64,000 nucleotides of DNA from contig JAHJIN010000484.1 of NCBI GenBank assembly GCA_018823415.1, forward strand, positions 1-64,000, in the 5' to 3' direction. A model generated the notes under the pieces. The model was not told where the DNA came from. It did no database searches and saw nothing but the letters and a program-made list of their open reading frames with translations. The stretch comes from Chloroflexota bacterium. GTDB lineage: Bacteria > Chloroflexota > JAHJIN01. Of the stretch, positions 2,633-60,044 are shown one piece after another (the first letter of the stretch is position 1; every line of letters starts with the position of its first letter). The position numbers were made by a program, and so were the translations under genes.

Positions 2633-2732
2633 TGGCGGGAGTGCGTGGGAGTCGAACCCACCTTGGACATCTTTGACATGCCCAACATACGGGTTTGAAG
2701 CCCGCGGGACCCACCGGGACCCATCCACCCCC
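2633..2732 (-). tRNA. selC: tRNA-Sec (anticodon TCA), CCA encoded
   Basis: Minus strand GGGGGTGGATGGGTCCCGGTGGGTCCCGCGGGCTTCAAACCCGTATGTTGGGCATGTCAAAGATGTCCAAGGTGGGTTCGACTCCCACGCACTCCCGCCA; 8-bp variable arm TTGGGCAT/ATGTCCAA; T-arm GTGGG-TTCGACT-CCCAC; CTTCAAA anticodon loop. One acceptor-stem position (pair 8) looks like G-G. Confidence 0.9.
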
Positions 2733-55398: not shown

Positions 55399-56445
55399 TT
55401 ACGCCTCGTCTTCCTGCAAGGTCTGGAACCCGCGCCCCAGCACCTCCTGGGCCGGCGACACGATGACGAACGACTGAGGGGCCTCGGCTTGAACCAGGGC
55501 CTTGAGGGTGGGGATTTCGGTGATGGTGAGGGCGCACAGGAGCACGGTGTGCTCCTGGTGGGTGTACATGCCGGTACCGGGGAGTGCCGTTACGCCACGC
55601 CGCATGTCGCGCATGATGCGGTCGGCCACGGCCGGCGCACGGTCGGTGATGATCCAGGCGATGACCTGCTGGCGGCGCTGCGCCGGGCGAAACCAGGCTG
55701 CCGCAGATGATAGGCCGGGCATCTCGGATCTGCCGTAGCGAGGCAGCACTTCGCCGGTGGCCTGGTGCAATCTCTTGGTCAGCAGACCCAGTAGTAATAG
55801 TGCGCCGTTAAAGGCCAGGCCCAGCAAGAGTACCAGCCAACCGGGGATGGTGCCCAGCGCGCCTCGGCCGACAAACTCGGCCCACGACGCGGCCGGCGCC
55901 GGCAGCAGCCAGTTCTTGATCAGCCAGGCCAAGCTCAGGATCAAATAGAGCCACAAATAGTTGCGGCGAAAACGCCGGCCCAGTGCTTCCCACGATGAAA
56001 CCGCAAAATGCGGGTGCAGCAGGCTTTCGGCTAGGCTTTCTGCCCAGTCCGGGGCCGGGTGAAACGGTGGCACCAGCATGCCGGCGAAAAAGTCGGTCTC
56101 CATCAGGCGCACGCGATAGCTCCACACCTCATAGTAGCGGTAGCGGCGGGCCTCGATGTACAGGAACAGCGTGACCAGCAGCGTGCTCAGGATGATGACG
56201 CCGTGGTGGGTGGCCGAGCTAAAAGCAATGCTGATGGCTGCGCCAGTGGTAATGACGGCCCAATTGGTGGTAGTGTCCAATCGCTGCCGCCACACGTTGG
56301 CGCGCTGGACTTCGGCGCGGAACAGGTGGACCATGGCGGTGGTGAATTCGCTGGGCTGCAGGCTATAGCCGCGAAAGGTCCAGACCGGCTCGCACGTCTC
56401 GGCGGTTGGTTCAGAGGCAGAATTGGGATCAGGTGGGTCTGTCAT
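55399..56445 (-). CDS. DUF2270-like membrane protein with C-terminal DUF2179-like region
   Basis: MVHLFRAEVQRANVWRQRLDTTTNWAVITTGAAISIAF...YYEVWSYRVRLMETDFFAGML; C-terminal AWIITDRAPAVADRIMRDMRRGVTALPGTGMY. Confidence 0.75.
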   Translation of the reverse strand: MTDPPDPNSASEPTAETCEPVWTFRGYSLQPSEFTTAMVHLFRAEVQRANVWRQRLDTTTNWAVITTGAAISIAFSSATHHGVIILSTLLVTLFLYIEARRYRYYEVWSYRVRLMETDFFAGMLVPPFHPAPDWAESLAESLLHPHFAVSSWEALGRRFRRNYLWLYLILSLAWLIKNWLLPAPAASWAEFVGRGALGTIPGWLVLLLGLAFNGALLLLGLLTKRLHQATGEVLPRYGRSEMPGLSSAAAWFRPAQRRQQVIAWIITDRAPAVADRIMRDMRRGVTALPGTGMYTHQEHTVLLCALTITEIPTLKALVQAEAPQSFVIVSPAQEVLGRGFQTLQEDEA

Positions 56446-56465: not shown

Positions 56466-59111
56466 CTATGGATAGCGGGCCAGTGCTTCCAGGATGATGC
56501 GGGCGATGGGGCTGGCGGTGGCCGGGGCCGGCCCGGCCTGCTCCACCAGAACGATGATGACGTAGCGCGGCTCGATGGCCGGTGTCCACCCCACGAACCA
56601 GGCATCAGGCTGGTCGCTGGCCGAGGTGGGTGCCGTTGCCAGCAGGCCGACGGCGTCCTGACCCAACAGCGCGCCCTGGTGAGCGGCGGCCTGGGTCAGT
56701 GCGTGCTGCATGGCGATCCGAGTGGCCGGGGCGATGGTGGGCGACTCGACCAGCGACGTATCGGGCAGCAGGTGCGGCTGGCCGGTCCCGCCTGCCACGA
56801 GGGCCAGGATCAGGCGCGCGGCCTGGAGCGGCGTGATAACCGGGCCATCGCCGGCCGCGGCCCGGGCCAGTGTGGCCGGGTCGGTCAGGGTGCTGGTGTG
56901 CGGCACGAGATGGCCGGCCAGCGTGGGCAGTTCAAAGGGCGGGCGTTGGCTCCAGCCTAGTTGTTCGGCCATGCGCGTCCAGCGGTCGGCGCCCACGGTC
57001 AGCCCCAGTTGCCCAAAGGTAGTGGGGCAGCCGTCGGCCAGGGCCGCGGTCAGGGTGTCGTGCTGGGTGTGCCGGGGGCACGTCAGTGTGACGCCGTCTA
57101 CTGCGAACGTGGCCGTGGTGGTAAGCGGCCGGGCCGGGTCGACGAGGCCGGCGTCCAGGGCCGCGGCCAGTGTGACGATCTGCGCCAGCGGCCCCGTGGG
57201 ATACAGGCCCTCCGCGGCACGATTGAGCATCGGTCGTTGTGGGTCCTGCCCCAGGGCGTCCCACGCGTCGCCCACCGGCAGCCGGTTGGGGTCGAACGTG
57301 GGGTGAGAGGCCAGGGCCAGCACCCGGCCGTCGTCGGCGTCCAGGATGAGCACCGCGCCGGCTCGGTCGCCCAGGGCCTCGTCGGCCAGTTGTTGCAGGT
57401 CTGGGCTCAGGACAACGGGCGTGTCATCGCCAATGACCGGGCGGCCCAGCACGCCGTCCCACCAGCGGTCCCAGTGGGTGGCCGGCCGTGCGCGGCCCAT
57501 GAGCACGTCGTCCAGGATGCGCTCCAGCCCGGCGCTGCCGTGCTGCCAACTGGCGTAACCTATGGTAGAGGCCAGCAGCGGATAGGTGTAGATACGCCGG
57601 GCCAGACCGGTTTCGTCAAACTCGGTGTAGGCTAGGGTTTGACCGTCGGGCGCCAGGATGCGGCCACGGTGGGCGCGGCGCAGCATTTCCACGCGCCGGG
57701 GGTTGTCGGGCCGGGCCAACAGACCAGGGGCGTGCCAGATCTGCCAGTAGGGCAGCGCGGCCGCCAGGACAACGAGGCCCGTGAGCAGTACGGCCGCCAG
57801 ACGGCGCACCCGCCGGTTCAACTCGGCATCGACCGGCCCCGGTATCGAACGCGCCGACAGGCGTAACAAGAGGCCAACGATCAAATAGTTAGTCAGCAGC
57901 GAGCTGCCGCCATAGCTCACAAAAGGCAGCGTGATGCCGGTGAGGGGCACGATCCGCAGCACGCCGGCCACGATGATGAGGGTTTGCAGGCCCAGGATGC
58001 TGGTGAGGCCAGCGGCCAGGAGGGCCTCAAAGACGGTGCCGGTGCGTAAGGTGATGTGTATTCCCCGGCCCACCAGCAGCACATAGAGCGCCAGCACGGC
58101 CACCAGCCCGGCCAAGCCCAGTTCTTCGCCCAGGGCGGCAAAGACAAAGTCGGTGTGCACGGCCGGGATATAGCCGGGATACCCCCGGCCCAGGCCAGTG
58201 CCAAACAGTCCGCCGGCTGCCAGAGCGATGAGGCTCTGTACCACCTGGTAGCCGGCCCCCTGGCTCTGCGCCCAGGGATTCAGCCAGATGTGAATGCGCA
58301 CGCGCACGTGGTCAAAGAGCACATAGGCCGCGCCTGCGCCGGCGACAAAGAGCAGCAACCCGCCGATGATGTAGGCCAGGCGCCCGCTGGCGACATAGAG
58401 CAGGGCCAAAAAGATGCCCAGAAACAGCAGCGCGGTGCCCAGGTCGCGCTGCCAGACGAGCAATGCCATGCTGAGGCCCCACATGACCAACAACGGTCCC
58501 ACATAGGCCAGCGGCGGCAGGCGCAGCGGTCCAACGCGAGTGCTGGCCTGGGTCAGCAGTTCTCGTCGTTCGGCCAGGTACCCGGCGAAAAAGATGACCA
58601 GGAGTACCTTGAGGAGTTCGGACGGCTGAAAGTAGAAATCACCCAGGGTCAACCAGAGGCGTGGGCCGGAACCGCTGGGGGCCACGCCCAGGATCAGCGT
58701 GAGCAGCACCAGGCTCAGTCCCAGGAGTACCCAGAGGTATTTGTACCGGCGCAGACGTGATGGCCGTTTCAAGAACACCACCACGGCCAACATGACACCC
58801 AGGCCCATGAGTGCCCAGGCGGTTTGGGGCCACAGCAGGTCCGGGGCCAGCCGGCGGGCCATTACCAGGCCCAGCGCGGTGAGTGCGGCGGCCACGGGCA
58901 GCATCAGGGGATCGACCGGCCGGCGTGACAGGCTCAGGCCGGCCTGGGCCAGCAGCAGGCCGGCGGCCAGGATGACGCCAGGCAGCAACGCGGCTGCAGA
59001 TAGGCCCTCCTGAAAGACCAGCTCGATGGCGGCCAGTCCCAGGAGGGCCAGCGTGATGGGGACCAATAGTAATCCCCAGGGCAAGGCTCTGGATATATGG
59101 CGACCCAGCAT
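56466..59111 (-). CDS. SEDS (FtsW/RodA) glycosyltransferase fused to a PBP transpeptidase-like domain with degenerate catalytic motifs
   Basis: SEDS: QRDLGTALLFLGIFLALLYVASGR...GYQVVQSLIALAAGGLFGTGLGRG...HTDFVFAALGEELG...PFVSYGGSSLLTNY; PBP-like: RGRILAPDGQTLAYT...VVLSPDLQQLADEALGDRAGAVLILDADDGRVLALASHPTFDPN...YPTGPLAQIVTLAAALDAG. Confidence 0.9.
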   Translation of the reverse strand: MLGRHISRALPWGLLLVPITLALLGLAAIELVFQEGLSAAALLPGVILAAGLLLAQAGLSLSRRPVDPLMLPVAAALTALGLVMARRLAPDLLWPQTAWALMGLGVMLAVVVFLKRPSRLRRYKYLWVLLGLSLVLLTLILGVAPSGSGPRLWLTLGDFYFQPSELLKVLLVIFFAGYLAERRELLTQASTRVGPLRLPPLAYVGPLLVMWGLSMALLVWQRDLGTALLFLGIFLALLYVASGRLAYIIGGLLLFVAGAGAAYVLFDHVRVRIHIWLNPWAQSQGAGYQVVQSLIALAAGGLFGTGLGRGYPGYIPAVHTDFVFAALGEELGLAGLVAVLALYVLLVGRGIHITLRTGTVFEALLAAGLTSILGLQTLIIVAGVLRIVPLTGITLPFVSYGGSSLLTNYLIVGLLLRLSARSIPGPVDAELNRRVRRLAAVLLTGLVVLAAALPYWQIWHAPGLLARPDNPRRVEMLRRAHRGRILAPDGQTLAYTEFDETGLARRIYTYPLLASTIGYASWQHGSAGLERILDDVLMGRARPATHWDRWWDGVLGRPVIGDDTPVVLSPDLQQLADEALGDRAGAVLILDADDGRVLALASHPTFDPNRLPVGDAWDALGQDPQRPMLNRAAEGLYPTGPLAQIVTLAAALDAGLVDPARPLTTTATFAVDGVTLTCPRHTQHDTLTAALADGCPTTFGQLGLTVGADRWTRMAEQLGWSQRPPFELPTLAGHLVPHTSTLTDPATLARAAAGDGPVITPLQAARLILALVAGGTGQPHLLPDTSLVESPTIAPATRIAMQHALTQAAAHQGALLGQDAVGLLATAPTSASDQPDAWFVGWTPAIEPRYVIIVLVEQAGPAPATASPIARIILEALARYP

Positions 59112-59180: not shown

Positions 59181-60044
<864 letters not shown>

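Follow-up and report, generated by a model that had tools for sequence, protein, structure and literature searches.

The window, i.e. the whole 64,000-nucleotide stretch of DNA that was analyzed, encodes at positions 56466..59111 of the minus strand a single 881-aa protein that joins a SEDS polymerase to a class B PBP (bPBP), the latter almost certainly dead as a transpeptidase, judging by its aligned motifs. The loss of catalysis across a clade, in a half of the protein that is still under selection, suggests that this half, instead of cross-linking, may now switch on or steady the polymerase. The reading that we favor, with a probability of about two in three, is that the fusion represents a third SEDS synthase in which the pseudo-transpeptidase half is kept as an activator or scaffold, with cross-links made in trans.

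The fusion gene and its domains

The fusion gene starts with ATG and is read in one frame without an internal stop; all features given below lie on the same (minus) strand. The SEDS part consists of twelve helices (our count on the AlphaFold model), with two additional N-terminal membrane helices (residues 2–61, 58929..59108; helices 2–32 and 39–61 of the model) preceding the usual ten. The SEDS polymerase domain (residues 96–420, 57852..58826) matches PF01098 with 253.3 bits, against a cut-off of 26.4, and carries in the respective alignment columns the motifs GSGPRLWL, FQPSE, QRDLGTA and PFVSYGGSS. Its catalytic aspartate, D321 of HTDF (58149..58151), aligns with a column that is invariant in all proteins aligned; the role of Asp in SEDS catalysis has been described for FtsW D297 (PMC8765783). 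The SEDS domain is followed by the PBP membrane anchor, a helix in the AlphaFold model (residues 429–459, 57735..57827), the pedestal or PBP_dimer_2 domain (residues 482–560, 57432..57668; PF21922, 37.4 bits vs. a cut-off of 27) and a degenerate transpeptidase domain (residues 585–873, 56493..57359), which matches nearly the full PF00905 profile (80.6 bits vs. a cut-off of 22.1).

The AlphaFold model (pLDDT 88.2, pTM 0.81) comprises the SEDS helices, the anchor helix, the pedestal and a transpeptidase fold, and a Foldseek search with the PBP half returned, as the top solved structures, M. tuberculosis PBPA (3upp, TM 0.79) and an Eggerthella lenta transpeptidase (4mnr, TM 0.80). The single SEDS–bPBP fusion with intact SEDS motifs that the sequence-only reading had described is borne out by the open reading frame, the Pfam matches and the motif columns; its claim that the PBP fold persists despite the loss of the motifs holds as well, given the PF00905 match, the model confidence (pLDDT 88) and the structural match to PBPA.

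Directly upstream of the fusion lies an MTAP-like phosphorylase gene (59181..60044, PF01048), and directly downstream a gene for a DUF2270/DUF2179 membrane protein (55399..56445, PF10028 and PF10035; the start codon is our choice). The latter gene begins about 20 bases past the fusion stop and is possibly co-transcribed with the fusion.

Loss of the transpeptidase active site

Alignment with relatives places all three former active-site motifs in the fusion. The SxxK site reads P641-L-A-Q644 (57180..57191; S641P, K644Q), within YPTGPLAQIV at 637; the SxN site reads G694-C-P696 (57024..57032; S694G, N696P), within DGCPTTF at 693; and at the KTG site (56637..56645), L823, L824 and A825 replace K, T and G, within AVGLLATAP at 820. 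None of the seven catalytic residues is kept (0/7), and no intact Ser/Lys was found at another place in this alignment. The strings quoted in the sequence-only reading, which had concluded that SxxK, SxN and KTG are all gone, are thus exactly in place.

Dead and active PBPs in fused and separate genes

Scoring of 132 SEDS/PBP pairs, some of them near duplicates, at the seven catalytic positions yielded a sharp division, whereby 64 pairs keep all seven residues, 68 keep two or fewer, and none fall in between. To judge from titles or kinship, the 68 dead proteins all belong to Chloroflexota; 61 are fused and 7 are encoded by separate genes, and the dead fusions have full-length open frames in seven families. 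The SxN motif of the dead proteins is either replaced, by x-C-P or a related sequence, or deleted with its region; the xCP replacement is common to most of the dead proteins that retain the region. Two separate subgroups of the dead clade (L078–L080 of f23, as well as L014 and other f6 loci) have lost the SxN region completely, and the pedestal is kept in these subgroups.

Fused forms were seen in several families of Chloroflexota and in Coriobacteriia and Thermoleophilia. Among the 132 pairs, there are 39 active fusions, 38 of them outside Chloroflexota, all with SxxK, SxN and KTG. The remaining one, L067 (genome G140), is a Chloroflexota fusion with all motifs intact that lies outside the dead clade, i.e. 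a case of fusion without catalytic death. Many other sampled Chloroflexota families have the same pair as adjacent separate genes with a fully conserved active site; in some sampled families of this phylum, a search for such a PBP beside the SEDS gene found none. Fusion as a general cause of catalytic loss was rejected, given the 39 fusions with an active PBP and the 7 dead PBPs that have a gene of their own.

Phylogeny and history of the locus

When the motif columns were excluded from a SEDS-plus-PBP tree, the dead proteins sampled (26 of its 55 rows) grouped as one clade (support 100/99.7), of which the window protein is the first branch; after removal of the whole transpeptidase, the dead clade retained a support of 97/95.6. 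On the latter tree, the switch between dead and active states takes one change, and the switch between fused and separate genes at least six. In a SEDS-only tree, the window protein was placed with the dead clade, albeit weakly (68/94.8), whereas a quick SEDS tree put it among active relatives with separate genes. We prefer a single loss because in the careful trees the window protein joins the dead clade, with which it shares the xCP replacement; for the same reasons, a convergent loss in the window lineage is not preferred. Transpeptidase catalysis thus appears to have been lost once, anciently, in Chloroflexota. The fusion had initially been treated as a single odd case, which it is not: the dead PBP is an ancient trait of a clade, and the fusion is a separate trait that has come and gone repeatedly and is found with fully active PBPs as well. 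A sequencing error, a frameshift or chance as the source of the altered motifs was ruled out because 67 further proteins share the loss, the sampled ones form one clade, and xCP is common among them.

Within the window, the MTAP-like gene adjoins the SEDS gene, as it also does across most of the dead clade and at the active loci L011, L012, L013, L064 and L157. This shared upstream neighbor identifies the dead fusion and the active separate genes as one locus; the fusion locus is therefore orthologous to the active separate-gene SEDS/bPBP pairs of other Chloroflexota.

Selection on the dead half and alternative explanations

In 12 close pairs of dead fusions, dN/dS was 0.056–0.172 for the SEDS half and 0.084–0.26 for the PBP half; these pairs consist of relatives of the window protein, which is the only sampled member of its class and belongs to no pair. 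Purifying selection on the dead half shows that it has some function, not which one. The proposal that the PBP half is a pseudo-enzyme is strongly supported by the loss of the motifs, its clade-wide occurrence, the intact predicted fold and the purifying selection in relatives.

At matched SEDS divergence (40–55% identity), the identity of the pedestal is level (0.379 in dead proteins and 0.369 in active Chloroflexota), whereas that of the transpeptidase is lower in dead proteins (0.307 vs. 0.433), tree structure being ignored in both comparisons. Thus, constraint has been relaxed on the catalytic domain yet maintained on the pedestal. That conservation has moved in this way fits the activator idea of the sequence-only reading, as does the published activation of RodA and FtsW through the contact between the bPBP pedestal and ECL4 (PMC6207328, PMC8078798, PMC8765783). 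Given that the discarding of catalysis along with the retention of the pedestal fits pedestal activation, we read the fusion as a putative SEDS polymerase that activates itself and has a pseudo-PBP as a subunit, and consider an activator role of the PBP half probable.

A dead half that serves only in structure or localization, tethering the SEDS protein to envelope proteins or binding glycan without activating the polymerase, would also account for selection on a transpeptidase fold that has lost catalysis. This possibility gains from the conservation of a cysteine pair, Cys678 (57078..57080) and Cys695 within GCP (57027..57029), both present in 34 of the 35 dead proteins that retain the region and putatively joined in a disulfide, as well as from the FHA-domain neighbors in many relatives, which point to a regulated complex. 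However, the pedestal, the known activating surface (PMC8078798), is undiminished in conservation, and there is precedent for SEDS proteins requiring their bPBP for activity, which makes a purely structural module unlikely.

Cys695 itself occurs in every dead protein with this region retained, and the residue most often seen in place of the KTG Lys is His (18/68), so that the PBP half might conceivably keep, or have gained, some other catalysis. We regard this as very improbable, given that Cys695 is conserved together with Cys678, in keeping with a disulfide, that Cys at this position is found also in 14 of the 64 active members, that a large group has deleted both cysteines, and that the replacing residues differ among subgroups. 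That the PBP half is a decaying passenger on the SEDS protein is likewise very improbable: the lower conservation of the transpeptidase compared to active relatives and the large deletions in some subgroups are what decay would produce, but the dN/dS range of the PBP half in the 12 pairs largely contradicts it, as do the full-length frames in seven families and the high model confidence, and useless dead copies in separate genes would be lost. The least credible alternative is a still working, penicillin-sensitive transpeptidase with a misaligned active site, for which the PF00905 score over the gathering cut-off could be cited, but the alignment of the three motifs is unambiguous across the 64 active relatives, and the 68 have them replaced.

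Proposed role and comparison with known systems

Under the favored activator reading, the protein would be a third FtsW/RodA-type (SEDS) synthase that is related to the RodA-PbpA pair found in Actinobacteriota and has its orthologs in other Chloroflexota. At an early point in this lineage of Chloroflexota, its bPBP partner would have given up transpeptidase catalysis in a single event while being kept as a non-catalytic subunit. The anchor and pedestal would keep the SEDS polymerase in place and activate it, and the transpeptidase fold would stay as a scaffold or contact surface; polymerase and PBP are by now one polypeptide in the window protein and most of its relatives. The fusion complex would then polymerize glycan, and other PBPs would cross-link it in trans; polymerase activity, pedestal activation and trans cross-linking are the parts of this scheme that we infer.

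RodA-PbpA of Mycobacterium and other Actinobacteriota resembles the fusion in that PBPA has the PBP_dimer_2 domain and is the solved structure that best matches the PBP half; however, PBPA has a gene to itself and is an active transpeptidase that can be acylated, whereas the Chloroflexota protein lacks the motifs and is fused. FHA-domain genes lie near the related loci of most relatives; no window ORF at 45–64 kb joined the FHA cluster. Fusion by itself is common, and it is active in Coriobacteriia, whose fusions (Eggerthellaceae, Atopobiaceae, Collinsella) show the same order, SEDS then PBP, and their PBP halves are the next-best structural matches, but, unlike the dead Chloroflexota fusion, they keep SxxK, SxN and KTG. 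Similarly, Atopobium transpeptidase structures bind penicillins, whereas the dead fusion is devoid of the motifs. The structures 4mnr and 4n1x are probably transpeptidase domains of such fusions, given the name 'glycosyltransferase' and the Coriobacteriia fusions found.

RodA-PBP2 and FtsW-FtsI likewise combine a SEDS protein with a class B PBP, and there the pedestal activates (PMC6207328, PMC8078798, PMC8765783). Their PBPs are active, however, and the Chloroflexota fusion scores below the NCBIfam equivalog cut-offs for ftsW (265.9 vs. 337.5), rodA (223.6 vs. 336.7) and pbp2_mrdA (158.9 vs. 455). An artificial RodA-PBP2 fusion is also a single chain, which works in vivo and in vitro, but it is engineered and contains an active PBP2 (PMC6207328). 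SEDS-bPBP synthases and active fusions were thus already known; in the searchable open-licence literature on natural SEDS-PBP fusions, pseudo-PBPs and Anaerolineae SEDS, no description of a clade-wide, catalytically dead fusion was found.

Activation of SEDS proteins by bPBPs independent of transpeptidation has been examined before with mutants; in the dead lineage, nature has in effect run this experiment. The lineage reveals the pedestal as the surface that remains under constraint and provides single-chain proteins for direct assay. The activator reading also predicts a polymerase complex that is beyond the reach of beta-lactams through its own PBP.

Other cell wall genes in the window genome and its relatives

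A separate active bPBP, for which the sequence-only reading had proposed to look, appears to be present in two motif-complete forms: an FtsI-type protein (YEPGSVFK, SCN, KTG) whose gene shares a contig with that of an FtsW, and an MrdA-type protein (YPPGSTIK, SCD, KTG) encoded beside a RodA. The genome further encodes three class A PBPs; the class and type names of the PBPs are our reading of the sequences. Each of ten relatives checked has three SEDS proteins, one of them with a fourth, sub-threshold fragment.

Of the 32 genomes whose dead fusion was checked, 31 contain MecA_N, compared with 101 of 367 others, an association that is confounded by phylogeny, and no MecA_N-type bPBP was found in the window genome. 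A more far-reaching scheme, conceivable but doubtful, is that the Chloroflexota synthase uncouples polymerization from cross-linking by means of a built-in, beta-lactam-blind pseudo-PBP activator, and that a free MecA-type bPBP probably carries out the cross-linking in trans for the greater part of the clade.

Seven dead-clade genomes examined (G005, G111, G341, G103, G191, G375 and G199; loci L185–L191) encode a motif-complete MecA-type bPBP, several of these with a lipoprotein-like signal. Apart from cell wall genes, the window contains a selenocysteine tRNA gene (2637–2732, minus strand; Rfam 68.6 bits, in agreement with ARAGORN), so that the organism probably makes selenoproteins.
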